Assembly (NCBI GenBank): GCA_027307335.1 | Contig: DAHUXD010000047.1 | Coordinates: 1-64,000 of the forward strand | Direction of reading: 5' to 3' | DNA: 64,000 nt | From: Acidobacteriota bacterium | GTDB taxonomy: Bacteria > Acidobacteriota > Thermoanaerobaculia > UBA5066 > Gp7-AA6 | In this document: piece by piece, positions 49,935-64,000 of the stretch | Layout of the letters: each line of letters opens with the position of its first letter | Numbering within the stretch: the first letter of the stretch is position 1 | The notes under the pieces: generated by a model | The model's database searches: none | What the model was told of the DNA's origin: nothing | What the model saw: only the letters and a program-made list of their open reading frames with translations | Translations under genes and position numbers: made by a program

Positions 49935-50034
49935 TGGCGGAAGCGTGTGGGAGTCGAACCCACCCGTCCCGGCACGAGGCCGCGACGCCGACGGATTTGA
50001 AGTCCGCGAGGGTCACCGGACCCCGTGCGCTTCC
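49935..50034 (-). tRNA. selC: tRNA-Sec (anticodon UCA)
   Basis: The minus-strand gene runs from GGAAGCGC (50034) to CGCTTCCGCCA (49935), about 100 bases with encoded CCA. The anticodon arm CGGACTTCAAATCCG gives UCA; the long variable arm (GCGTCGCGGCCTCGTGCCGGGAC region) and T arm GTGGGTTCGACTCCCAC are as in bacterial selenocysteine tRNAs. Position 8 of the extended acceptor is a C-A mismatch. CATAAT at 50041-50046 is a good -10. No selA, selB or recognisable selenoprotein is in the window. Its 3' end is copied at 43578 and 41332. Confidence 0.92.
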
Positions 50035-54231: not shown

Positions 54232-54310
54232 CTTCACCGGTCTACGGCAGGTTCATCAATGGCGTTCCGGGGATCCAGGCGGCCCGGCTTCAATCAGACG
54301 TGGTGGTGAT

Positions 54311-54337
54311 TGGTGGAGCTGACCGGGATCGAACCGG
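54311..54337 (-). repeat. Truncated copy of the tRNA-Ala 3' end
   Basis: TGGTGGAGCTGACCGGGATC plus GAACCGG is identical over 27 bases to the 3' end of the tRNA-Ala gene (54484-54510), same orientation, 173 bases away. The rest of the tRNA is replaced by unrelated GC-rich DNA. This is the pattern left by site-specific insertion or by deletion between tandem tRNA genes. Confidence 0.8.
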
Positions 54338-54377
54338 CCGCGCCTCGCTTCGCTCGGGCGCTCGGCGGCGAAGCAGG

Positions 54378-54400
54378 CGGGGGGCGCACGGCGCCCCCCG
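54378..54400. repeat. Strong GC hairpin next to the tRNA-Ala remnant
   Basis: CGGGGGGCGC (54378-54387), ACG loop and GCGCCCCCCG (54391-54400) make a perfect 10-bp stem between the truncated and the intact tRNA-Ala. It could be part of the inserted element or a terminator for the tRNA. Confidence 0.5.
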
Positions 54401-54483
54401 AACCCCCCGAGATCGGTCGCCGCTTCGATCCTGACGAGCTCGGTCCTCAGGAGGGTCGTGGCTCGAAGGAATGCCGTGGCTGT

Positions 54484-54560
54484 TGGTGGAGCTGACCGGG
54501 ATCGAACCGGCGACCTCCTGAATGCCATTCAGGCGCTCTCCCAAACTGAGCTACAGCCCC
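54484..54560 (-). tRNA. tRNA-Ala (anticodon GGC)
   Basis: The minus-strand gene starts GGGGCTGTAGCTCAG (54560) and ends CAGCTCCACCA (54484), with CCA encoded. The anticodon stem-loop CCTGA-ATGGCAT-TCAGG gives GGC, alanine. D arm AGCTCAGTTTGGGAGAGCG and T arm GCCGGTTCGATCCCGGT are canonical. A -10-like TATCCT lies 20 bases upstream. Confidence 0.93.
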
Positions 54561-54619
54561 ACGCGGAAGAGGGCGCGAAGGATAGCACGGCGCCTCGGGG
54601 CGGCCCAAGCGCTCCGCCG

Positions 54620-55024
54620 TCAGTGCTTCGGGAGAGACCTCAGGTACAGGACGACCTGCTCGACCTGCTCCTTCGACAGCGTGCGGCCCCAGGGAGGCAT
54701 CATCGCCGACAGCCCGACTCCCGCTCCGCCGCGCTGGATCGCGTCCGCCAGGTCGGCGTCGGTCTTCTTCTTCTGGAACGCCGGGTCCGAAAGATCTCGA
54801 GGTTTCGGATCGAGGTTGAAGGCGTTGAAGCCGTCGCCGGCGCCGGTTTCGCCGTGGCACGTCTGGCAGTAGTGCTGGAACGTCGCGCGCCCGAGGCGCA
54901 GCTCGTAGGACATCGGCTTCGGCGGAGGCGCCGGCGCGGCGGCGGCCTTCCCCGCCGGCTTGCCCGAGCAGGCTCCGAGCAGGAGCGTGCCGGCGAGGAC
55001 GACACCGAGGCGCATCGTCTTCAT
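54620..55024 (-). CDS. Lipoprotein mono-haem cytochrome c
   Basis: This 134-residue protein has a lipobox signal (LAGTLLLGAC, acylated Cys at about 19), a Pro/Ala linker and one class I cytochrome c domain with CQTCH (about residue 53) and a likely axial Met in AMMPPWG. The end (EQVEQVVLYLRSLPKH) is the usual C-terminal helix. It overlaps the multihaem cytochrome gene by four bases (ATGA) and is the last gene of the Rieske/b operon. It could pass electrons from that complex to terminal acceptors. Confidence 0.9.
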   Translation of the reverse strand: MKTMRLGVVLAGTLLLGACSGKPAGKAAAAPAPPPKPMSYELRLGRATFQHYCQTCHGETGAGDGFNAFNLDPKPRDLSDPAFQKKKTDADLADAIQRGGAGVGLSAMMPPWGRTLSKEQVEQVVLYLRSLPKH

Positions 55025-57027
55025 TTCCCTCCCTTCGCCGCGGCAGGCGGCTGGTGCAGCGTCGCGAGGTACGCGGTCAGCCGCAGCGCGTCGCGGTCCG
55101 TCAGGCCGTAGTCCGGGCAGCGCACGTCGGCGCGCCAGCGCTGCGGTCCCTTGAGCCAGGCGAACGTCCAGCCGGGGCGCAGGCGCGTGCCGCTGTCGGT
55201 CAGCGGCGGACCGTAGTAGCCGCCGGCCGACCCGAGGATGTGGCACGAACGGCACCCGAGCGCGGTGTAGAGCCTCTCGCCCTCGGCGGGATCGACGTCG
55301 GACGCGGGCCGTCCCTGGAACGGATCCTCCGGCACGCGGGGATCGACGAAGAGCGTCTCGATCGCATCGGCGAGCTCGGTCGCCTCCTCGCGCGGCATGT
55401 GGAAGATCGGCATGCGCTCGGTCAGGATCGGTCGGATGCTGTAGGAGAGAACCAGGTAATCGACGAGCCAGCTCCGCTGTACCTTGCTTCCCTCGAACGT
55501 CAGCGGCGCCGTCGAGATGTCTCCTCCCCGGTCGCCGATCTGGTGGCACGAGAGGCAGCGGTACCGATCGACGAGATGCCCCACGCGGCCGGCGGGAATC
55601 GCAATCGGGGACGCCGTGGGGAGCACGCGGTACGACTCGGGAACGGGCTGGCTGCCGAAGGCGAGCAGCGCGGTGACGACCGCCTGCGTCTCCTCCGGGT
55701 TGAATCCGTACGCCGGCATCTTCAGGCCCTTGGCGAAGGACCGCGGCGAGTCGACCTTCGCCGCCAGCCACGCCGTCAGCGTCCGCGGCAGGTCGGTGCG
55801 GCGGCCGAAGTCGAGGAACGCGGCCTTCTTGTCGCCGATCCCGTCGAGATCGGGCCCGAACTTCTCGGCCGTGCGGCCGCCCGGCGAGCCGTGGCACGAG
55901 AAGCAGCCGTACTTGCGGAACGTCTTCTCGCCGGCCTCCGCGAGCGTGCGGTTGACGCGCAGCGGCTCGAGGATGTCCTTGGGCGCGTCGAAGTCGCGGA
56001 ACTCGTCCTCCATATAGGCGACGACGTCGCGCGAGTCCGCCTCGCTGAAGTGGTACTGAGGCATCGGCGTGAGCGGATTGAAAGCATGGGGGTCGCGGAC
56101 GTACGCGAGGAGCCAGCCGCGCGTGGCCGCCGACGCGACCTTCGAGAGCTCGGGCGCCGAGCCCTGACCCTTGCCCTCCACGGTGTGGCACGAGATGCAC
56201 CGCGACTCCGAGAACAGCTTCTTGCCGTTGGCGGCGTCGCCCGCCGGCTCGTCGCCGGCCGCGCGCACCGCGCGGGCGAGGTCCTCGGGGACGTCCTGGC
56301 CGAGCACGTAGTTCGCGAGCTCCTCGATCTCCCGCTCGCCCAGCTGGAAGTTCGGCATCGTGGAGTTGGGGTCCACGTCGCGCGGCTTGGTCAGCCACCG
56401 GCGCAGCCACACCGCACCCGTCTTCACGGGCTCGGACGAGAGCGGCGGCGCGCCCGACCGGTACGCCTCCCTCCCCCGCGCTCCATGGCATGCGAAGCAG
56501 CCGTAGCGGTCCATGACGGCGCGCCCGCGGGACAGGAGCGGGGCGGCGGGAACGGTCGCCGTCGAGTGGCAACGGCCGCACCCGGCCTCGATGTACGCAA
56601 CGGGAAGCAGCGGAGGGCCGGCGTCCTTCGCCGTCCCGTGCGCCTGCGACTCGGTGGTCGCCGGGCCCTCCCCCGCGTGACAGGACGTGCAGCCGTAGCG
56701 GTCGATCCGCACCGGCGTGTGCGGCGTCCACGGGTGGGCGGCGAACGGCGGCGGGGCTCCCTTCATGACGGCGTCGGCCACGCCGAGGTGACAGGTCGTG
56801 CATCGGTCCACGCGGTTGTCGAGCTGCGGGAGCCAGATCTGATGGATGGCGACGGGACGTTTCTCGAAATCACGCGCCTGCTGCGCGCTGCGGGCGCGGG
56901 ACGCGGCGAGGACGGCGAAGCGCCGCTGGTAGGCGCGATACGAGCGGAGGGCGTTCTTCGCCGGCGAGATCGCCAGCACCACCAGGAACGCCACGCTCGT
57001 CAGGGCAAACAGTCGGCGGATCGGCAC
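55021..57027 (-). CDS. Eight-haem cytochrome c subunit
   Basis: This 668-residue periplasmic protein has an N-terminal signal anchor (FALTSVAFLVVLAIS). Eight CxxCH motifs occur near residues 76, 113, 150, 177, 277, 375, 491 and 592. The first four are closely spaced, like a small multihaem module; the last four sit in cytochrome-c-like domains with downstream Met-Pro motifs (PMPQYHF, KMPAYGF). The layout looks like a fusion of a tetrahaem part to several mono-haem domains. It lies directly after the cytochrome b C-terminal subunit gene, so it likely replaces cytochrome c1/f as electron acceptor of the complex. Confidence 0.9.
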   Translation of the reverse strand: MPIRRLFALTSVAFLVVLAISPAKNALRSYRAYQRRFAVLAASRARSAQQARDFEKRPVAIHQIWLPQLDNRVDRCTTCHLGVADAVMKGAPPPFAAHPWTPHTPVRIDRYGCTSCHAGEGPATTESQAHGTAKDAGPPLLPVAYIEAGCGRCHSTATVPAAPLLSRGRAVMDRYGCFACHGARGREAYRSGAPPLSSEPVKTGAVWLRRWLTKPRDVDPNSTMPNFQLGEREIEELANYVLGQDVPEDLARAVRAAGDEPAGDAANGKKLFSESRCISCHTVEGKGQGSAPELSKVASAATRGWLLAYVRDPHAFNPLTPMPQYHFSEADSRDVVAYMEDEFRDFDAPKDILEPLRVNRTLAEAGEKTFRKYGCFSCHGSPGGRTAEKFGPDLDGIGDKKAAFLDFGRRTDLPRTLTAWLAAKVDSPRSFAKGLKMPAYGFNPEETQAVVTALLAFGSQPVPESYRVLPTASPIAIPAGRVGHLVDRYRCLSCHQIGDRGGDISTAPLTFEGSKVQRSWLVDYLVLSYSIRPILTERMPIFHMPREEATELADAIETLFVDPRVPEDPFQGRPASDVDPAEGERLYTALGCRSCHILGSAGGYYGPPLTDSGTRLRPGWTFAWLKGPQRWRADVRCPDYGLTDRDALRLTAYLATLHQPPAAAKGGK

Positions 57028-57040
57028 GGTGCGGCTCCCT

Positions 57041-57751
57041 TCAGAAGGCCACGGCCCGGGTCCACGGCCAGACGAAGGACCAGCCGGGACCCCGGAAGAA
57101 CGTTCCGATGACGGTCAGGATCGTCGCGACGATCGCGAACCACACCATGATCCACTCCGGCAGCGTTACTTTCGTCAGGGCGCGGCGGACCCGGCCCGCG
57201 CCCGCGCCGCCGCGCGCGGCGAACATCGCGAGCAGGACACCCGCCGTGGGCACCGCGATCGGCCAGCAGCGGAAGGCCGCGAACAGGGCGACGACCGCGC
57301 CGCCCGCGGCGGCGAGGGTGAGCGGCCGCTGCGGCCCGGCGCCCTCCCACAGCGGCCCCGCGGTCTGGTTGATGCGGGCGTAGGGAATCACGACGAGCGC
57401 GATCACCACGAGCGCCGGCATCAGCACGCCGGCGACGACCGGCGGGAAGTAGTGGAGCAGCTCCTGGAGCCCGAGGAAGTACCAGGGCGCCTTCGCCGGG
57501 TTCGGCGTCTCGAGCGGATTCGCGATTCCCTCGAGGGGCGCGTCGAAGAGGATCGCCGCGAGCGCGAGGCCGATCACGACGAGCTGGAACAGGATGACCT
57601 CGCGCAGGATCAGGTTGGGAAACGTCATCACGTACTTCTCGTCGGTCGTGCGCACGGCCGGGCGGCGGTCGGGCCGCACGAGCGCGATGCGGCGCGGCGT
57701 CGCGACGGGATCGACGCCCTCGACGAGCTCGATCGGCGGGAGCGTGCTCAT
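57041..57751 (-). CDS. Cytochrome b C-terminal (subunit IV-like) protein
   Basis: This 236-residue protein with about four to five membrane helices corresponds to the C-terminal half of cytochrome b (subunit IV of b6f). The Qo-site region reads [20 protein letters not shown], with APWY where bc1/b6f have [24 protein letters not shown] starts the first helix. The end carries [28 protein letters not shown] precedes ATG 57751, which overlaps the cytochrome b N-terminal gene. The N-terminal 40 residues are soluble. Confidence 0.9.
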
Positions 57752-58512
57752 CGGACCTCCTCCTTTCCGCGCGGCGCCTCGGGCGGCCCCTGCACGCCGC
57801 CGTCCTTGCGGACGCGCCAGATGTGGACCGACAACATCAGGAGCAGCGCGACCGGCAGGACCACGCAGTGGAGCACGTAGAAGCGCAGGAGCGCGTTCTC
57901 GGAGACGATGTTGCCGCCGAGCAGGAGGAACCGCGCCTTCTCGCCCACGAGCGGGGCCTCCTTGGCCATGTTCGTCCCGACCGACACGCCCCAGAACGCG
58001 AGCTGGTCCCACGGCAGGAGATAGCCCGTGTAGGACAGGAGCAGCGTCACGCAGAGCAGGACGACGCCGACGACCCAGTTGAACTGGCGCGGCGGCCGGT
58101 ACGCGCGGTGGAAAAACACGCGCATCATGTGGAGGAACGTGGCGAACACCATCAGGTGAGCCGCCCAGCGGTGCATGTTCCGGAGGAAGAGCCCGTTGTC
58201 CACGACGAACTCGAGCTCCTTCATGTCCCGGTAGGCCTGAGGCACCGAGGGGTGGTAATAGAACATCAGGAGCACGCCGGTCGCGACGAGGATCAGCGCG
58301 CAGGCGAGGGCGATCCCTCCGAGCCAGTACGTGTGCGTGAAGCGGAGCGTCTTCTCGCGCACCTTGACCGGGTGCACGTGGAGGAAGAGGTTCTCGAAGA
58401 CGACGAGCGACCGGTTGCGGTTCGTCGACGCGGTGCCGTGGCGCACCACAGAACGCCAGGCGTCCGTGTCGCGAAGGCGGCGGAAGACGGAGTCGAGCGA
58501 GAGCGTCGTCAT
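57748..58512 (-). CDS. Cytochrome b6-like subunit (cytochrome b N-terminal domain)
   Basis: This 254-residue protein has four membrane helices and carries the two b haems. Helix B has H-x13-H ([15 protein letters not shown]). Helix D has H-x14-H ([16 protein letters not shown]), the b6-type spacing rather than H-x13-H of bc1 cytochrome b. In helix [19 protein letters not shown] aligns with the b6 segment whose Cys (before LGG) binds haem c_n; here it is Trp, so that haem is not expected. ATG 58512 overlaps the Rieske stop. Confidence 0.93.
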
Positions 58513-59003
58513 GCCTTGAACACCTTTCCGTGGGCGACGGTGATCGACGTGTCCACGACGAGAAGCCCCGATGGATCGAGCCCGACGTCGAGCCACGGCA
58601 GCGGACGCGGCGCCGGCCCCTCGACGACGTTGCCCTCGAGGTCGAACCGGCTCCCGTGGCACGGGCAGGCGATCACGCCCTGGTCCGAGAGGAAGCGGGT
58701 GATGCAGCCGAGGTGCGTGCACACGGCCGACAGGGCGTACACGCCGCCCGGGCACCCCACGACGTAGGCCTTCTGCTCCTTGTTGAACCGCACGGTCCCG
58801 TCCGGGTAGTCGGCCGGGCTGCCGGCGCGGAACGTCGTCGAGGGCTCGAAGAGGACCTTCGGTTTCATGAAGTCGAGCGTGACGAGTCCCGATCCCACCG
58901 CGGCGGCGGCGCAGGCGCCGACGCCGAGGCGCGTCAGGAAGTCGCGGCGTTCGGGGTTCGCGGGCGGCGCGTCGGACACGGGTCCGTTCTCTGGGTCAGG
59001 CAA
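58509..59003 (-). CDS. Rieske [2Fe-2S] protein
   Basis: This 164-residue protein has a Tat-type signal with the twin Arg in [11 protein letters not shown] followed by a membrane anchor ([12 protein letters not shown]). The Rieske cluster ligands are C-T-H-L-G-C and C-P-C-H-G-S ([22 protein letters not shown]). TTG 59003 is the start: GGAGG lies six bases upstream, within the end of the oxidoreductase gene, and GTG 58979 has no ribosome site. It moves electrons from the Qo site to the cytochrome c subunits. Confidence 0.92.
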
Positions 59004-60825
59004 TGGCGTCCTCCACGGTCTGAAAGCTCTGCATGGTGATGGTTCCGGCGGGGCAGCGGGCGGCGCACAGGCCGCACCGGATGCAGATCTCCTCGTTCTT
59101 GATCAGGATCGAGCCCTCGCGGCGGCCGTCGATCAGGATCGGCGCGAGCTCGCGGGCCGCCTCGGGCATCGCGCTCACCGTCGCGGCCGGCACGATCTCG
59201 ATGCAGTCCTCGGGACAGATGTCCTGGCAGCCGCCGCACAGGATGCACTCCGTGCCGAGCTCCGGATCCTGCGCGAACGCCGTGTTCGTCCAGCAGCGCA
59301 GGCACCGGCTCCCCTCCCGGCGCGCCTGGATCTCCGGGAAGCACTCCTCGACCTCGGCGATGCCGATGCGCCGCTCGATCGGGCGCGTCGGCGGCTTCTG
59401 CCGGGGAATGCCCTCGAAGTCCCACGTGCGCTCGTAGCGCGGGTGCACGTCGATCTCGACCGTTCCCTCGAATTCCGGGCGCGGACGGCCGCGCAGCAGC
59501 TCGTCGATCGACTTCGCGGCGCGCTTGCCGTCGGCGACGGCGTTGATCGCGATCCGCGGACCGAAGGCGGCGTCGCCGCCGGCGTAGATCCCCTTCGCCG
59601 ACGTCGCCAGCGTCACCGGATCGATCACGATGCGGCCGCCGCGGGTCTCGACGCCGTCCTCGGGCCGCAGGAAGGAAAAGTCGCCGGTCTGCCCGATCGA
59701 GACGATGACGGTGTCCGCGGGCACGATCGCCTCCGAGCCCTCGATGAACAGCGGCGAGAAGCGGCCCTGCTCGTCGAAGACGCGCGAGACGGACCGGAAC
59801 TCGACGCCCGTGACCCGGCCGTCCTCGCCGACCAGGCGCTTCGGGCCCACGCCGTGGCGGAAGCGGATGCCCTCCTTCAGCGCCTCCTCGATCTCGTCGG
59901 CGGCGGCGGGCATCTCGCGCTCCGACTCCAGGCTGCACACCGTGACCTCGCGGGCGCCGAACCGGATCGCGCTGCGCGCCACGTCGAGGGCCTGGACGAC
60001 CGACAGGTTCCGCTGGAGGTTCTCCTGCTCGCCGCCTCGCGCCGCGACTCGCGCCACGTCGAGCGCGACGTTGCCGCCGCCGATCACGAGGACCTGGCGG
60101 CCCATCTCGACCTTGTAGCCGAGGTTGACGTTCAACAGATAGTCGATGCCCCGCAGCACCCCGTCGAGATCCATCCCCTCGACCGTGAGGTCCCGGCTCC
60201 GCATCGCGCCGACGCCGAGGAAGACGGCGGCATAGCCCCGGTCCCTCAGGTCCGACAGCGTGAACTCGTGGCCGAGGCGGGCGTTCGTCGTCAGCTCCAC
60301 GCCGAGCGAGAGGATGGCGTTGATCTCGAGCTGGATGAGCGCGCGCGGCAGGCGGTACTCGGGCACGCCGAGGCGCAGCATCCCGCCCGCCACCGGCGCG
60401 CCCTCGAAGATCGTCACCGGGTAGCCGAGCAGCGCGAGGTCGTGCGCGCACGCGAGCCCCGCGGGCCCCGACCCGATCACCGCGACCTTCTCGGGATGCC
60501 GGTCCGCCCGGCGCCCGTAGATCTCGGCGAGCACCGACAGGTCGATCATGCTCTCGACCCCGAACCGCTCGGTGACGAACCGCTTCAGCGCGCGAATCGA
60601 GATCGGCGCGTCGAGGTCGCCCCGGCGGCACGCCGCCTCGCACGGTGCGGCGCAGATCCGGCCGCAGATCGAGGCGAGGGGGTTCGGCCGCCGGGCGACG
60701 GCGTAGGCCTCGCGGTACCGCCCCTGCGCGATCAGCGAGACGTACTTCCCGGCCTCCGTGTGGACGGGACACGCCCACTTGCAGGGGAAGTTGCGCTCGA
60801 GGAACTCGCGGGGAAGACCGGCCAT
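58996..60825 (-). CDS. GltD-like FAD/NAD(P) oxidoreductase with multiple Fe-S clusters
   Basis: This 609-residue soluble enzyme has four parts. The N-terminal cysteine domain of the GltD type (residues 10-75: CKWACP, ICGRICAAPCEAACRRG) binds [4Fe-4S]. The FAD fold follows (KVAVIGSGPAGLACAHDLAL), then the NAD(P)H fold (VLVIGGGNVALDVARVAA) and the second FAD motif (GIYAGGDAAFGP). The C-terminal part has CLRCW, a ferredoxin-like CILCGGCQDICPEDC and CIRCGLCAARCPAGT. No signal peptide is seen, so it faces the cytoplasm. Placed inside a Rieske/b operon, it probably links NAD(P)H to the quinone pool, perhaps by bifurcation (inference). Confidence 0.92.
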   Translation of the reverse strand: MAGLPREFLERNFPCKWACPVHTEAGKYVSLIAQGRYREAYAVARRPNPLASICGRICAAPCEAACRRGDLDAPISIRALKRFVTERFGVESMIDLSVLAEIYGRRADRHPEKVAVIGSGPAGLACAHDLALLGYPVTIFEGAPVAGGMLRLGVPEYRLPRALIQLEINAILSLGVELTTNARLGHEFTLSDLRDRGYAAVFLGVGAMRSRDLTVEGMDLDGVLRGIDYLLNVNLGYKVEMGRQVLVIGGGNVALDVARVAARGGEQENLQRNLSVVQALDVARSAIRFGAREVTVCSLESEREMPAAADEIEEALKEGIRFRHGVGPKRLVGEDGRVTGVEFRSVSRVFDEQGRFSPLFIEGSEAIVPADTVIVSIGQTGDFSFLRPEDGVETRGGRIVIDPVTLATSAKGIYAGGDAAFGPRIAINAVADGKRAAKSIDELLRGRPRPEFEGTVEIDVHPRYERTWDFEGIPRQKPPTRPIERRIGIAEVEECFPEIQARREGSRCLRCWTNTAFAQDPELGTECILCGGCQDICPEDCIEIVPAATVSAMPEAARELAPILIDGRREGSILIKNEEICIRCGLCAARCPAGTITMQSFQTVEDAIA

Positions 60826-60829
60826 GCGC

Positions 60830-61408
60830 CTACTTCGCGATCTCGAAGTTCGCCTCGGTCGCGCCGGCGACCGTCGCCGGCTTCTCGGCGGGCTTCAGCT
60901 TGGGATGCCAGACCTTGACCGTGTAGCTCCCGTCGGGGACGTCGGCGATCTTGTAGCTCCCGTCGGCCTTCGCGACGGCGAAGTAGGGCGTCGGCACGGC
61001 GACGACGAATCCCTGCATCTCGGGGTGGACCTTGCAGAGGAGCTCGGCGATGCACTCCTTCGTGAACGTGTAGCTCTTGGTCTGGCCCTGCGGCCACGTG
61101 CCCAGATTGAACTTGTCGGCGCAGACCGCCGGGGTGTAGACGTTGTGCAGCACCGCGTCCGAGTTCAGGAAGTCCACCGTCGTGCCGACGAGGACCGGCA
61201 GCACGTGCGGAACGAAGACCATGTTCTTCTGGTCCATGGTGACGTGGTCCTTGGGAGCCGGGAACGTCTTGCCCGCGATCGCGCCCACGTAGACGACCGC
61301 CTCCGAGCAGTCCTTCGCCCCCTTGCAGACGAGCTTGCCGTGAAGATCGCCGGCGGCCGCGGGGAGGGCCATCGCCAGGATCAGCGTTCCGAATGAGACC
61401 TTCTTCAT
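60830..61408 (-). CDS. Exported cupredoxin-like protein with C-terminal beta-sandwich
   Basis: This 192-residue protein has a signal peptide (SFGTLILAMALPAAAG). A cupredoxin-like domain shows a possible type-1 copper set: His in VLHNVY and C-x2-H-x2-M in CKVHPEMQG. C-terminal residues 135-192 (YFAVAKADGSYKIADVPDGS, YTVKVWHPKLKP) match carboxypeptidase-regulatory-like/SdrD-type folds. AAAGGAG precedes ATG 61408. It lies in the respiratory operon between an outer-membrane protein and the oxidoreductase; it could carry electrons across the periplasm. Confidence 0.85.
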   Translation of the reverse strand: MKKVSFGTLILAMALPAAAGDLHGKLVCKGAKDCSEAVVYVGAIAGKTFPAPKDHVTMDQKNMVFVPHVLPVLVGTTVDFLNSDAVLHNVYTPAVCADKFNLGTWPQGQTKSYTFTKECIAELLCKVHPEMQGFVVAVPTPYFAVAKADGSYKIADVPDGSYTVKVWHPKLKPAEKPATVAGATEANFEIAK

Positions 61409-61449
61409 CGTCACTCCTTTGTCGAATGCGTTTCCGTTTTCCATGCGCT

Positions 61450-62805
61450 TCAGAAGATGAATCGCCCGAGCAGGTAGAACGTGTTGTTGTCGCTCGCGTT
61501 GCGGCCCGAGCCGTCGTAGTCGGTCGTGCCGCCGTTGAACTTCGTGTAGCCCGTGAACTGGGCCGAGACCTGGAGGTTCTGCGTCGGCCACCAGGAGAGG
61601 TTGGCGATGAAGCCGTCGCTGTTCGGCGAGCCGGTGGCGCTTCCGCCGATGGCGCCCGGCGGATAGAGGGCCGGATCGGCTGTGCCCCACGTGTCGAACC
61701 ATCCGAGCGTCGCCGACACGCGGTTGCCGAAGTGGTATTCGGCGTTGACGTTGACGGAGCTCAAGTCCTGGTTCAGGACGCTCGCGCCACCCATGGCGAC
61801 CGTTCCGGCGAGATTCGCGCTCTGGTGGATGTAGGTGCCCCGCAGCGACAGCACGTCGTGCCGGGCGATCGTGAGGTCCCATTGCATGTCGCCGGCGATG
61901 TCCGTGTACGTGTCGCCCAGGCCCGAAACGCCGTTCGGCGTCGACTTCATGTACATCCCATAGGTCCCGATCTCGAACTGGCTCTCGGTCCCCGACTGCT
62001 GCCAGGCGAGGCGCCAGTACGGCGCGACGCCGGTCGTGTTGAAGGTGAAGCCCTCCCCCGTGTTCGGCTGGGCGCCGATGTGGGTCGTGCGGTAGGCCAT
62101 CGTCGTCAGGTAGAGATGGTCATTCCACATCGCGTAGGCGCCGCCCCCCGCGACGTCCTGCCCGAGGCTCTGGATCATCGTGGCGGCGGCGGGCGACGGC
62201 GCAACTTCGCTCGAGACCCAGGGATAGCCCCAGGCCGGCGTCGAGTTCCAGAGGTCCTCGACCGTCGGGTTGTTGTTCAGGTCGAGCCCCCACACGAGCT
62301 CCTTGCCGCCAAGTGTCGTGATCCGGGCGTAGCGGATGTCGGTGTTGTCCCAGCTGAAGTGATCGTCGGCGGTCGTGTAGGTCAGCTGCACGAAGCTGCC
62401 GAGGTGATCCGTCCAGCCACCCGCGAGAAACAGCGAGGCGGCCTGCGGGAACTCGACCGTTCCGTTCTGTGTGCCCGGTTGAGCCGTCTTCGTCTGCGTG
62501 AAGCTCGTGTCGAACATCGCCGAGAGCGGCAGCGTCTTCAAGAGGTCGAGGCCGGCGGACCAGGTGCCGGGCTCGGCCTTGACGGCGGGCTCGTCCTTCG
62601 CGCGGTCGACGTAGCCCGTGAGCTTGAAGCGCCGGCCCGCGGGGTTCAGCTCCGGCGGCGTGTAATGGCAGCCGCTGCAGCGCAGCCCGGTCTGCCGCGC
62701 GTAACTGGGAACCGCGACGGCCGGCTCCGAGCCGGCACCGAAAAACAGGAACGCCGCGGTGAGAAACGCAAAGACGATGCAGAGGCCGCGTCTCGAGCTG
62801 TGCAC
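61450..62805 (-). CDS. Outer-membrane beta-barrel with an N-terminal haem-binding motif
   Basis: This 451-residue protein has a signal peptide (CIVFAFLTAAFLFFGAGS), then PSYARQTGLRCSGCHYTPPE with one CxxCH (about residue 43), then a long run of amphipathic strands ending in Phe (NTFYLLGRFIF). This looks like a porin fused to a mono-haem plug, as in outer-membrane electron conduits of some iron- and metal-active bacteria. AGGAGG precedes GTG 62805. It is the first gene of the eight-gene operon. Confidence 0.85.
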   Translation of the reverse strand: MHSSRRGLCIVFAFLTAAFLFFGAGSEPAVAVPSYARQTGLRCSGCHYTPPELNPAGRRFKLTGYVDRAKDEPAVKAEPGTWSAGLDLLKTLPLSAMFDTSFTQTKTAQPGTQNGTVEFPQAASLFLAGGWTDHLGSFVQLTYTTADDHFSWDNTDIRYARITTLGGKELVWGLDLNNNPTVEDLWNSTPAWGYPWVSSEVAPSPAAATMIQSLGQDVAGGGAYAMWNDHLYLTTMAYRTTHIGAQPNTGEGFTFNTTGVAPYWRLAWQQSGTESQFEIGTYGMYMKSTPNGVSGLGDTYTDIAGDMQWDLTIARHDVLSLRGTYIHQSANLAGTVAMGGASVLNQDLSSVNVNAEYHFGNRVSATLGWFDTWGTADPALYPPGAIGGSATGSPNSDGFIANLSWWPTQNLQVSAQFTGYTKFNGGTTDYDGSGRNASDNNTFYLLGRFIF

Positions 62806-62920
62806 GTGAGCCCTCCTTCGCTGTGGGAGAGACTCGCGCTTCGGAGGCGCCGGGAGAATCCCGCGCCCTCACCAAAAGGGATGGGTAAATCGCACCAGGC
62901 CGCCTCGGGCGGGCGGCCGG

Positions 62921-63595
62921 TCAGACGATGCGGTGCTGGAACGCGAAGGCGACGGCCTCGGCCTTCGAGTGAACCTCGAGCTTGTCGAGAATGTTCTGGA
63001 TGTGGTTCCGGGCGGTCAGGATCGAGATGTTCAGACGGCCGCCGATCTCGGGAGCGGACCGGCCGGCGGCGAGCATGCCGAGCACCTCGACCTCGCGGGT
63101 CGTGAGCCGGCGCGCGCGCGCGTCCGGAGACTCGCGGACGGAGACGAGCATCGGCCGCGGCGGAGCGGCCGACGCCTCACCGGGACGCGCCGGAGCCGCC
63201 TCCGACGGAGAGAGCACGTGCGCGAGCACGAAGTGATCGGGGGGCCGGACGGCCAGGTGAAGGACGCTCACGTCCATCGGCACGATCCGGCCGTCCTTCG
63301 CCCGCAGGCGCAGCCCGAAGTGCCGGATCGTCTCGCCGCGCGCGGCCATCGCGGTCACGGGACAGTGCTCCGAACAGTACCGGTTGCCGAAGGCATCGCA
63401 GCCCTCCAGGGCCGTCGCGCAGCCGGCGCCGGAGATCTCGTCCTCGGAGTACCCGAGGAGCCGCTCGCAGCTCGCGTTCCAGAAGATCAGGCGGAGGCGG
63501 CGGTCGGTGGCGAAGACCGGGTCCGGGGAATGCACGAGCGACTCGAAGAGGCTTCGGACCTCTTCCGGCACGCGCTCGACACGGGTCGACGCCAC
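62921..63595 (-). CDS. PAS-LuxR transcriptional regulator with a cysteine cluster
   Basis: This 224-residue regulator has a PAS domain (residues 15-130: DPVFATDRRLRLIFWNASCE, RLLGYSEDEISGAGCATALE) with five cysteines at about 43, 59, 66, 74 and 78 (C-x6-C-x7-C-x3-C in the last four). A C-terminal LuxR/GerE helix-turn-helix follows (RRLTTREVEVLGMLAAGRSA, NISILTARNHIQNILDKLEV). There is no receiver domain. GTG 63595 is the start, after GAGAGGGAAC. It lies just upstream of the respiratory operon in the same direction and may be its redox-sensing regulator. Confidence 0.88.
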   Translation of the reverse strand: MASTRVERVPEEVRSLFESLVHSPDPVFATDRRLRLIFWNASCERLLGYSEDEISGAGCATALEGCDAFGNRYCSEHCPVTAMAARGETIRHFGLRLRAKDGRIVPMDVSVLHLAVRPPDHFVLAHVLSPSEAAPARPGEASAAPPRPMLVSVRESPDARARRLTTREVEVLGMLAAGRSAPEIGGRLNISILTARNHIQNILDKLEVHSKAEAVAFAFQHRIV

Positions 63596-63686
63596 GACGT
63601 TCCCTCTCGTTTCCGGCGGTGGGCCGTTTCGGCGGAGGAGAGTCTCCGCGGCGACGGGTGCCCCAGGGGCAGCATATGCGGCCGAA

Positions 63687-63864
63687 CTAAACCGCCGCTA
63701 AAGAGGCCCCCGGGAGAGGCAAATCGCTCATGTCGCGCATGCCCTCGGTCGCCCGGATCGAGCCGTCCTCGAGGATGACTGCGCCCTCGGCTCCCGGCGT
63801 GGCCTCGAGGAGCGCGGGCCCGTCTCCGTAACGCCCTTGCGGCGACTCGCGGTCAGGAAGCCCC
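63687..63864 (-). other. Short open frame without start, unassigned
   Basis: A minus-strand frame directly after the molybdoenzyme stop encodes segments such as EATPGAEGAVILEDGSIRAT and EGMRDMSDLPLPGASLAAV, then TAG at 63687-63689. The composition looks protein-like and the end resembles a gene terminus, but no start codon with ribosome site is visible before an internal ATG. It may be a gene relic or a short gene with a non-standard start. Confidence 0.25.
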
Positions 63865-63872
63865 AGGGAGGC

Positions 63873-64000
63873 CTAGCCGGCGGCCCGCAGGGGTGCCGCG
63901 GCCGCGAGGGCCTCCTTCACGCGCTCGGGCGTCAGCGGCAGACGCAGGGCCCGGGCTCCGGTCGCGTCGAACACGGCGTTCGCGATGACCGCTCCGGTCG
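63873..64000 (-). CDS. Xanthine dehydrogenase-family molybdopterin-binding subunit (C-terminal end, partial)
   Basis: Forty-two codons before a TAG at 63873-63875 read TGAVIANAVFDATGARALRL then PLTPERVKEALAAAAPLRAAG. This is the typical C-terminus of the large, molybdenum-cofactor-binding subunit of xanthine dehydrogenase-family enzymes (the conserved P-T-G-A-V-x-N-A-V-x-D-A-x-G and L-P-x-T-P-E-R). The gene enters from the right edge of the window. Moco synthesis by the moeA product would serve it. Confidence 0.75.
   Translation of the reverse strand, partial: TGAVIANAVFDATGARALRLPLTPERVKEALAAAAPLRAAG

Follow-up and report, generated by a model that had tools for sequence, protein, structure and literature searches.

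The window, the whole stretch of 64,000 nucleotides that was analysed, carries a minus-strand cluster of eight close-packed genes (62805-54620) in an Acidobacteriota-like genome (Table 1). The genes run in the order porin (OMB), cupredoxin (CUP), oxidoreductase (FNR), Rieske protein (RIE), cytochrome b (CYB), subunit IV (SU4), octahaem cytochrome (C8) and lipoprotein cytochrome (CL), and the first-pass annotation, which had reported eight same-strand genes in this order joined by overlaps or short gaps, proved accurate on each point. Since the same genes were found again in the same order in other genomes, the set goes beyond chance. A gene for a PAS-LuxR (GerE) protein lies 115 bases upstream of the operon; a relative of it adjoins the operon in six of seven loci of the same class (upstream in four, downstream in two) and is found upstream in loci L055-L058 and L065. 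The protein is perhaps the operon's regulator.

Table 1. Genes of the operon and the neighbouring regulator gene, with window positions.
Feature	Position	Strand	Evidence
OMB, Cyc2-like outer-membrane cytochrome-porin	61450..62805	-	Sequence, AlphaFold2 model, Foldseek
CUP, secreted blue-copper protein	60830..61408	-	Pfam Copper-bind; 41-base gap after OMB
FNR, GltD/Nfn-like FAD-NAD(H) oxidoreductase (substrate suggested)	58996..60825	-	Pfam/NCBIfam; 4-base gap after CUP
RIE, Rieske [2Fe-2S] protein	58509..59003	-	Pfam Rieske; 8-base overlap with FNR
CYB, cytochrome b6-like subunit	57748..58512	-	Pfam Cytochrome_B; 4-base overlap with RIE
SU4, subunit-IV-like membrane protein	57041..57751	-	Pfam Cytochrom_B_C; 4-base overlap with CYB
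C8, octahaem cytochrome c	55021..57027	-	8 CxxCH; 13-base gap after SU4
CL, lipoprotein monohaem cytochrome c	54620..55024	-	Pfam Cytochrome_CBB3; 4-base overlap with C8
PAS-LuxR (GerE) regulator gene	62921..63595	-	Pfam PAS 36.7 bits, GerE 56.9 bits

Properties of the encoded proteins

The Rieske gene starts at a TTG, with a GTG start just downstream. Its product has a Pfam Rieske match of 45.2 bits, the cluster motifs CTHLGC...CPCHGSRF and a Tat-like signal, for which the Tat model in the NCBIfam search scored over its cut-off. The best solved relatives are 9rk4 and 9rk3, the structures of Kuste4569 and Kustd1480 of Kuenenia. Potentials of +303 and +335 mV are given for Kuenenia Rieske proteins in the available text of PMC12954380; a serine and a phenylalanine beside the RIE cluster are the same in Kustd1480, a likeness of residues only.

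The adjoining cytochrome b is a four-helix, b6-like protein (Pfam Cytochrome_B, 144.6 bits). Cytochromes of the b6 type have paired haem histidines with spacings of x13 and x14, and the pairs read from the CYB sequence, H114/H128 and H215/H230, show this spacing. Trp63 stands at the position of the haem-cN cysteine (Cys35), where the alignment to b6 is ungapped. By column count, this cysteine is missing from 92 of 93 FNR-linked cytochromes b, and it is also missing from 3 of 17 FNR-less rows. Judged from the residues, the loss would fit a transfer of electrons to FNR on the cytoplasmic side; the pattern amounts to one change on the tree (independent-pairs p 1) and is therefore not independent support. 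His45, which is conserved in the sampled rows (a different alignment shows a gap there in L054), may be a ligand of the additional b haem that has been put forward for the dimer interface in Kuenenia. It could not be aligned with Kuenenia His43/His62, and since it is present in the 17 FNR-less rows too, it is not specific to FNR. SU4 scores 26.3 bits against Cytochrom_B_C (cut-off 20.7) and has four clear segments and a possible fifth in a hydropathy scan, the Kuenenia counterpart having five transmembrane helices; in several other branches a longer b is present and no separate SU4 was found.

C8 bears an N-terminal hydrophobic anchor and occupies the place of cytochrome f or c1, families to which Pfam gave no match among the operon proteins; Cytochrom_C is among the matches that were obtained. 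Eight haem motifs are found in the C8 of the window and of all 36 loci with the full set, and one CxxCH each in OMB and CL. The latter has the lipobox LGAC and a Cytochrome_CBB3 match of 46.5 bits. The copper motif of CUP, C-x2-H-x2-M (CKVHPEM), is kept in all 49 CUP matches among 87 loci. CUP scores 25.0 bits against Copper-bind (cut-off 21.2) and has amicyanin as its best solved match (E 7.6e-5), and its C-terminal stretch resembles a carboxypeptidase-regulatory domain (CarboxypepD_reg 27.5 bits, under the cut-off of 32.3).

FNR, of 609 aa, consists of N-terminal Fer4_20, Pyr_redox_2 and C-terminal 4Fe-4S domains (Pfam), and its PDB relatives are NfnA, the L-type subunit of Nfn and dihydropyrimidine dehydrogenase. 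The best NCBIfam match, NF009410, reaches 433.7 bits, below the curated cut-off of 516. Cysteine residues and Glu300 are conserved across the FNR loci, with [LIMV]-Glu at positions 299-300 in 88 of 88 and Arg-Arg there in 11 of 11 paralogues. An Arg-Arg pair at this position presumably bears on the choice between NAD and NADP, and the glutamate, a single motif, suggests NAD(H) as the substrate. Because Glu300 is also found in two FNR copies away from Rieske genes (L091, L098), it marks the FNR group and not the complex.

OMB (451 aa) gave no Pfam or NCBIfam match. It has one N-terminal haem motif, AVPSYARQT-GLR-CSGCH-YTP-PEL, and a C-terminal phenylalanine, and its AlphaFold2 model, of moderate confidence (pLDDT 61.2, pTM 0.67), has 16 strands. 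The best Foldseek matches of the model are general porins, with OprO at rank 25 and OprP at rank 45; the porin subtype of Geothrix best matches OprP and PorB, then OprO. OMB departs from the Cyc2 motif AXPXFAR[Q/K][T/Y] by a tyrosine for phenylalanine (AVPSYARQT) and is therefore filed as Cyc2-like and not as Cyc2; like Cyc2, it has a single CXXCH, PXL four residues downstream and a length of at least 365 aa. Among the CxxCH porins of other loci the strict motif occurs in 11 of 42, and all 42 have a looser form of it.

Linkage and distribution

The best 80 named loci among the matches listed in an FNR search were compared, together with seven loci of the same class. A Rieske gene lies within 4 kb of FNR in 77 of the 80, which span many phyla; of the other three, the contig ends at FNR in L065, complex-I-like genes stand beside FNR in L091, and L098 has neither. 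The oxidoreductase gene does not show the random placement by which the proposal of the first-pass annotation would have been refuted. FNR, RIE, CYB, SU4 and C8 diverge jointly (r 0.94-0.97 across the window and 38 other loci; 0.95 for FNR with CYB), and this divergence as one block, together with the linkage, argues that FNR is not a chance neighbour. It is near certain that the core comprises an NAD(H) oxidoreductase, a Rieske protein, cytochrome b, subunit IV and an octahaem cytochrome c, as linkage and joint divergence show. The same two lines, and the Rieske matches, support the initial proposal that the quinol complex is an extended one to which an NAD(P) oxidoreductase belongs, as in anammox bacteria.

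Of the 80 best named loci, 30 have all eight genes on the same strand, as do six of the seven same-class loci. Geothrix is among the closest named carriers among the matches listed, and the isolates Geothrix campi and G. terrae have the full operon; a Scalindua locus reads CUP-FNR-RIE-CYB-C8-CL, and the isolate Anaeromyxobacter sp. PSR-1, from another branch, has neither porin nor cupredoxin. The barrel, which had been taken as part of the complex, belongs with it in part. A related porin gene occurs in 37 of the 80 best named loci, 36 of them with a CUP gene close to FNR; in the other sampled branches, however, the porin is lacking, and in places another subtype is found, the two subtypes substituting for each other at the same locus. 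Divergence relative to the core has an r of 0.93-0.94 for one subtype and 0.60-0.64 for the other. Of 19 porin matches found across the window's genome and 60 of its relatives, 11 lie away from the complex.

Proposed function

We consider the operon to encode an extended Rieske/b6-type complex, and hold with somewhat better than even confidence that it is a reversible quinol-based bifurcator, with NAD+ on one side and a high-potential chain in the periplasm on the other. Its assembly, direction and substrate are what we infer. On the cytoplasmic side, the Fe-S clusters of FNR would exchange electrons, in either direction, with the b haems, and on the periplasmic side the Rieske protein and C8 would connect to CL, CUP and the haem plug of the Cyc2-like porin. 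With two quinols, NAD+ would receive one electron pair through the low-potential b branch, and the periplasmic chain would receive the second through the high-potential branch. This chain may end at a terminal oxidase; alternatively, CUP and the porin may link it to a one-electron partner outside the cell, such as a small soluble metal ion. NAD+ reduction would be favoured if the periplasmic chain were kept oxidised, and the reverse if it were kept reduced. Of the interpretation first put forward, the extended quinol complex with an NAD(P) oxidoreductase has held, bifurcation is a serious candidate, and the link to the barrel was recovered in part. As the window's genome has complex I and haem-copper oxidases and no RuBisCO match was obtained in 18 genomes, it is not evident why NADH would have to be made from quinol.

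It could be argued that the operon is an NADH-oxidising conduit, in which electrons from NADH (and quinol) pass through C8, CUP and the porin to extracellular Fe(III) or oxidised organic matter, with no bifurcation and b haems that just pass electrons. Geothrix, one of the closest carriers, is treated as an electron exporter (its lake genomes are listed with 0 oxidative-EET genes in the available text of PMC12285243), and the missing RuBisCO implies that NADH may be plentiful. Nevertheless, a plain conduit would have no need of the Rieske protein or of the two haem His pairs of the b subunit, all of which are kept; 17 of the 18 genomes have complex I; and a one-haem porin is predicted, in what is available of PMC8406198, to work on dissolved ions only. 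Together these points make the conduit unlikely. Less probable again is that the complex serves as the uphill branch of an Fe(II)-like metal oxidation, with electrons entering by the porin and CUP, a cbb3-type operon as the downhill branch, and the complex, using proton-motive force or coupled to NADH, lifting the rest to quinol and NAD+. A second operon in the same genome does encode a porin with the strict Cyc2 motif (AFPAFARKY), a CUP relative, a dihaem c, COX1 and FixO (cbb3-type oxidase), parts that resemble the rus operon of A. ferrooxidans as far as the available text of PMC10654088 describes it. However, a close homologue of the second porin (E < 1e-50) was found in no more than 8 of the 38 genomes with the operon, counting that of the window, and two of the other seven have a COX1 relative near it; the second CUP relative gave no Copper-bind match despite its C-x2-H-x2-M motif; and RuBisCO, the CO2-fixation route searched, is the very match missing from the 18 genomes.

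That FNR is an independent cytoplasmic enzyme, merely co-regulated with an ordinary Rieske/b complex, would agree with the FNR-less Rieske/b cluster on the same contig and with the two of 80 best named copies that lie away from Rieske genes, yet the linkage across many phyla and the joint divergence with CYB, as well as the reported co-migration of all subunits of Kuste4569-4574 (available text of PMC12954380), make it very improbable.

If the complex is a bifurcator, making NADH from quinol would be an option in the respiration of many bacteria and not just of the anammox group, and Cyc2-like porins would serve for more than iron oxidation coupled to an oxidase. We suggest, as a possible though doubtful extension, that the one operon provides a route between an outside redox partner and NAD(H) without complex I (porin, CUP, C8, Rieske/b bifurcator, FNR), and that porin and CUP are a portable outer module for different inner-membrane complexes. 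The window's genome would then have one copy here and another on the cbb3-type oxidase, an arrangement that would parallel, beyond the Proteobacteria, the pair of branches, uphill and downhill, described in Acidithiobacillus. That Rieske/b complexes form NAD(P)H by bifurcation has been put forward as a proposal for anammox bacteria, and since the core is also present in many phyla, with cultured bacteria among its carriers, the proposed function is testable.

Comparison with known systems

The closest known relatives are Kuste4569-4574 and Kustd1480-1485 of Kuenenia stuttgartiensis (R/b-2 and R/b-3), which, as in the window, have a b6-like b and a subunit-IV-like protein. In the available part of their description, a hexa- or octahaem c replaces cytochrome f (the window has an octahaem), an NAD(P) oxidoreductase with Fe-S clusters is present as in our operon, a bifurcating route to NAD(P)H is put forward (PMC12954380), one complex adds an HAO-like octahaem protein, and neither porin nor cupredoxin is mentioned. 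The gene order differs from that of the window as far as the published locus numbers show. These complexes were modelled, in the same text, with haem cN, whereas the window has Trp in place of its cysteine, and the complex is therefore called a variant of the R/b-2 and R/b-3 kind. Nitrospina gracilis shares the Rieske protein, the split b6 and subunit IV and an atypical octahaem c in a bc-like operon noted also in Kuenenia and Methylomirabilis oxyfera, with no NAD(P) oxidoreductase or porin mentioned in the available text (PMC3578206). The Geobacter cluster extHIJKLMNOPQS (ExtO Rieske, ExtP cytochrome b, ExtQ, ExtS) likewise unites a Rieske protein, split b, multihaem c and porin, and what is available of PMC5877670 mentions neither an NAD(P) oxidoreductase nor a haem on the porin ExtI. 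CYB reaches 268.9 of 290 bits against the NCBIfam ExtP model and SU4 53 of 150 against ExtQ, both under the curated cut-offs.

The cytochrome b6f complex of chloroplasts and cyanobacteria has in common the four-helix b6, subunit IV and the Rieske protein; the window complex differs in having an octahaem c and FNR instead, with no cytochrome f match and no Cys35. FNR shares Fer4_20 and the FAD/NAD(P) fold with the flavoproteins of Nfn, GltD and dihydropyrimidine dehydrogenase, but has a C-terminal 4Fe-4S extension, an insert in the NAD(P) domain and a glutamate where the relatives compared have Arg-Arg. OMB shares the single CxxCH, a closely similar upstream motif, PxL and the 16-strand porin with Cyc2 of Mariprofundus and Acidithiobacillus, whereas its partner is a Rieske/b-NAD(H) complex and iron oxidation by OMB is putative. 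The kind of complex is thus already known from Kuenenia, its inner core being best known from anammox bacteria, and what is new is the lack of the haem-cN cysteine, the FNR motif suggesting NAD(H), the pairing with a Cyc2-like porin and a cupredoxin, and the breadth of its distribution.

Results

The eight genes were found in the place, order and strand that the first-pass annotation had given, neighbouring genes overlapping in four cases and being separated by short gaps in three, and the cytochrome that it described as eight-haem (C8) does carry 8 CxxCH motifs. Its subunit assignments also agreed with the family scans, except for the outer-membrane barrel (porin), which had no family match. 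In the oxidoreductase (FNR), Fer4_20 and FAD/NAD(P) modules like those of Nfn, GltD and dihydropyrimidine dehydrogenase are joined to 4Fe-4S domains at the C-terminus. Sixteen of the 17 FNR cysteines inspected were retained in 86 or 87 of 88 aligned sequences, the remainder being gaps or X, and Cys541 was retained in 86 of the 88, with one Leu and one gap. Residues 299-300 of FNR correspond in the alignment to the YRR motif found in relatives of the Nfn type; the arginines of YRR-type motifs bind the extra phosphate of NADPH. At this site Glu comes after a hydrophobic residue in all 88 members of the FNR group, including both copies away from Rieske genes, and 11 of 11 GltD-like paralogues of the same class have Arg-Arg. 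Since Glu replaces Arg-Arg, it is suggested that FNR would prefer NAD(H).

The histidines of the cytochrome b6-like protein (CYB) are spaced as in b6, and its alignment to b6 is ungapped around Cys35, the haem-cN cysteine, where CYB has a Trp (Trp63). The best two solved relatives of the Rieske protein (RIE) were 9rk4 and 9rk3, identified in the available text of PMC12954380 as the Kuenenia proteins Kuste4569 and Kustd1480, and Ser and Phe flank its cluster as in Kustd1480. The copper motif of the cupredoxin (CUP) was retained in 49 of 49 matches. A scan of 54300-64000 gave no promoter-like sites, and the four terminator-like sites in that interval (3.1 expected) were uninformative. In several genomes the operon is adjoined by a PAS-LuxR regulator that might sense redox or metal state; its PAS region includes a cysteine-rich stretch. 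A selenocysteine tRNA gene was also found in the window (ARAGORN; Rfam RF01852, 66.5 bits), and the organism therefore probably makes selenoproteins.

Features located in the window and in the loci compared
Feature	Position	Strand	Content or setting
PAS-LuxR regulator	window, 62921-63595	-	
Selenocysteine tRNA gene	window, 49939-50034	-	
Second Rieske-b-IV-octahaem cluster, FNR-less	L052, 13131-18776 (window's contig, 77.1-82.8 kb)		about 14 kb past the operon's upstream end
Third Rieske/b locus of the genome	L054, 8469-19991 (contig C19)		nearby multihaem cytochromes with 9, 5, 19 and 9 CxxCH
Second porin operon	L222, 5800-12055 (contig C59)	one strand	CUP relative, porin, dihaem cytochrome, COX1, FixO-cytochrome fusion
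Scalindua locus	L116, 8316-15276		cupredoxin, FNR, Rieske, long b, octahaem c, lipoprotein c; no porin match
Methylomirabilota MAG locus	L091, 6113-11025		close FNR relative after presumed complex-I-like genes, not Rieske/b

Close FNR orthologues (75-79%) were present in 7 of 60 relatives; an eighth genome with the operon (G005) has its FNR cut by a contig end, and no orthologue was found in G001 or G002, the two genomes sampled from the same family. The set is present in all seven loci fetched from the same class; it is complete in six and truncated at a contig end in the seventh. Named genomes were scanned with an FNR alignment; confirmed loci were ranked on FNR similarity alone, and the best 80 of 297 were compared. 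The proposal that the oxidoreductase belongs with the Rieske/b genes was borne out by this synteny search, as a Rieske gene lay within 4 kb of FNR in 77 and cytochrome b within 5 kb in 76 of the best 80 of 297 loci; 41 of these 80 had CUP within 1.5 kb and 37 had a relative of the porin within 9 kb. In the three of these best 80 without a nearby Rieske gene, the contig ends at FNR (L065), the neighbours are presumed complex-I-like genes (L091), or neither applies (L098).

All eight genes lie on one strand in 30 of the best 80 of 297 named loci and in six of the seven class loci, with the porin first in 29 of these 36 and last in 7. The porin frame of L064, which belongs to the 30, carries no CxxCH, and in another locus (L061) the porin and cupredoxin genes do not adjoin FNR but are found some kilobases away on its upstream side. 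Genomes that carry the full set among the best 80 of 297 are labelled Acidobacteriota, Eisenbacteria, Ignavibacteriales, Neomarinimicrobiota, Bacteroidetes and Glassbacteria; an FNR-Rieske-b core with no porin match extends further, to Chloroflexota, Actinomycetota, Myxococcota, Binatota, Verrucomicrobia, KSB1, Zixibacteria, Chlorobi, Riflebacteria and Scalindua. Some loci with no porin match carry other haem proteins, and the Scalindua locus retains CUP. Unlike the Kuenenia models, the Scalindua cytochrome b is without the haem-cN cysteine.

Pairwise identities were correlated over the 38 of 86 loci with matches to the porin, CUP, FNR, RIE, CYB, the subunit-IV-like protein (SU4) and C8, plus the window. 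Correlations are 0.94-0.97 among FNR, RIE, CYB, SU4 and C8, 0.86-0.89 between CUP and these core subunits, and 0.35-0.43 between the porin and all others, or 0.44-0.49 with longer porin sequences. The low overall porin value arises because one porin subtype replaces the other. When the subtypes were compared separately, omitting L064 for its porin frame without CxxCH, the porin correlated with FNR, CYB and C8 at 0.93-0.94 in the second subtype (25 loci) and at 0.60-0.64 in the window's subtype (13 sequences), in which FNR and CYB correlate at 0.98. The porin as a wholly unlinked accessory was dropped after these within-subtype values. Common descent may contribute part of each correlation, the figures being computed without a species tree.

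In its N-terminal region the window porin has A-V-P-S-Y-A-R-Q-T, three residues, CSGCH, three residues and P-E-L. The marks of Cyc2, a fused cytochrome-porin, are given in the available text of PMC8406198 as AXPXFAR[Q/K][T/Y], CXXCH, PXL and a 16-strand porin; the window porin differs in having Tyr in place of Phe, and membership in Cyc2 proper is not claimed, nor is membership in the Ext family. Other loci supplied 42 porins with CxxCH, of which 11 carry the strict motif and all 42 a looser form. The model of the window porin (16 sequences; pLDDT 61.2, pTM 0.67) has 16 strands and resembles general porins; that of the Geothrix subtype (pLDDT 63.0, pTM 0.65) has 17 listed strand elements and best matches OprP and PorB, with OprO next, OprO and OprP being also named for Cyc2 (PMC8406198). 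Both subtypes share one operon site, the window's in two class loci (L035 and L038) and the second in the other five of seven. In its own genome and the 60 relatives the window's subtype family has 19 matches, 8 in the operon and 11 elsewhere.

The porin and cupredoxin were also met outside FNR operons. In the second porin operon the CUP relative (30.6% over 134 aa) has no Copper-bind match, and the porin carries the strict motif AFPAFARKY. A close homologue of this porin is present in 8 of 38 operon-bearing genomes, the window's included, and in the other seven it is accompanied by a dihaem cytochrome and a CUP relative. A COX1 relative lies nearby in two of the seven, 24-26% identical to that on C59, and one scores as COX1; a cyc2-cbb3 operon common to carriers was not found in general. 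In the relative G004, which had no FNR match in the search of the 60 relatives, a CRP-like gene and a membrane protein with four haem sites, both named from sequence, lie near a porin and a CUP 71% identical to the window's. Together, the C59 operon, its homologues and the G004 pair suggest that porin and cupredoxin form a portable module.

FNR-less Rieske/b clusters were compared as well. The second cluster on the window's contig retains the haem-cN cysteine, as do 14 of 17 FNR-less cytochrome b rows vs 1 of 93 FNR-linked rows. In this comparison CYB rows of 150 aa or shorter were left out, L175 was set by hand as FNR-present because an FNR tail (73% identical) stands at its contig start, and L181 was given no label on account of its truncated contig. 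The cytochrome b tree requires 2 changes for the FNR label (shuffled mean 16.1) and 1 for the haem-cN cysteine, so that the latter is one event; its loss as independent evidence for FNR coupling was thus ruled out. His45 as an FNR-specific haem ligand was also ruled out, since it occurs in FNR-less complexes too. A CUP relative was clear in 10 of 13 newly fetched FNR-less clusters, with a weak match in one.

Discussion

In a RecA set of 11 rows, the genome groups with one from Thermoanaerobaculia (Acidobacteriota) at a support of 93 (not starred). Identity to Geothrix is 67% for RecA, 76% for FNR and 78% for CYB; as FNR and CYB exceed RecA, horizontal transfer is weakly hinted at by this one marker. 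Of 18 genomes used for metabolism, 16 have the operon, another has it truncated at a contig end and the last carries another branch of the complex; haem-copper oxidase and the complex I 49-kDa subunit were each found in 17, and RuBisCO was matched in none of the 18.

From the gene content, its conservation, the joint divergence of the subunits and their motifs, we infer the assembly of a complex, its electron path and its direction. In the available text of PMC12954380 it is argued that menaquinol could reduce NAD(P)+ if the partner electrons drop to an acceptor of high potential, and measurements on isolated Rieske fragments gave +303 and +335 mV. The retained Rieske/b architecture, the loss of the haem-cN cysteine and a predicted NAD(H) enzyme would be compatible with such bifurcation; operation of the complex in the reverse direction and a plain NADH conduit are possible alternatives. 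As for the porin, the available text of a study of lake genomes gives Geothrix a count of 0 oxidative-EET genes (PMC12285243). Tools that seek Cyc2 may miss these porins, or the role of the porin may be outward.

In the open-licence text available (including PMC12954380, PMC5877670, PMC8406198, PMC10654088, PMC9040806, PMC12285243, PMC9342728, PMC13053071, PMC13253579, PMC3578206, PMC4683180, PMC3174227, PMC7029218 and PMC12442345), no description was found of this operon, and none of a Rieske/b cluster with an NAD(P) oxidoreductase in bacteria other than anammox ones. The same literature yielded no account of the breadth of the FNR-linked core, of an operon with a Cyc2-like porin and cupredoxin, of the FNR motif, or of the outer-membrane module for anammox-type Rieske/b complexes. 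Split-b Rieske operons with an adjacent octahaem cytochrome are known from Nitrospina, Kuenenia and Methylomirabilis (PMC3578206, in the text available), and NAD(P) oxidoreductases in such clusters are known for Kuenenia (PMC12954380). The operon represents a variant, and a widespread one, of the NAD(P)-linked Rieske/b complexes of anammox type.
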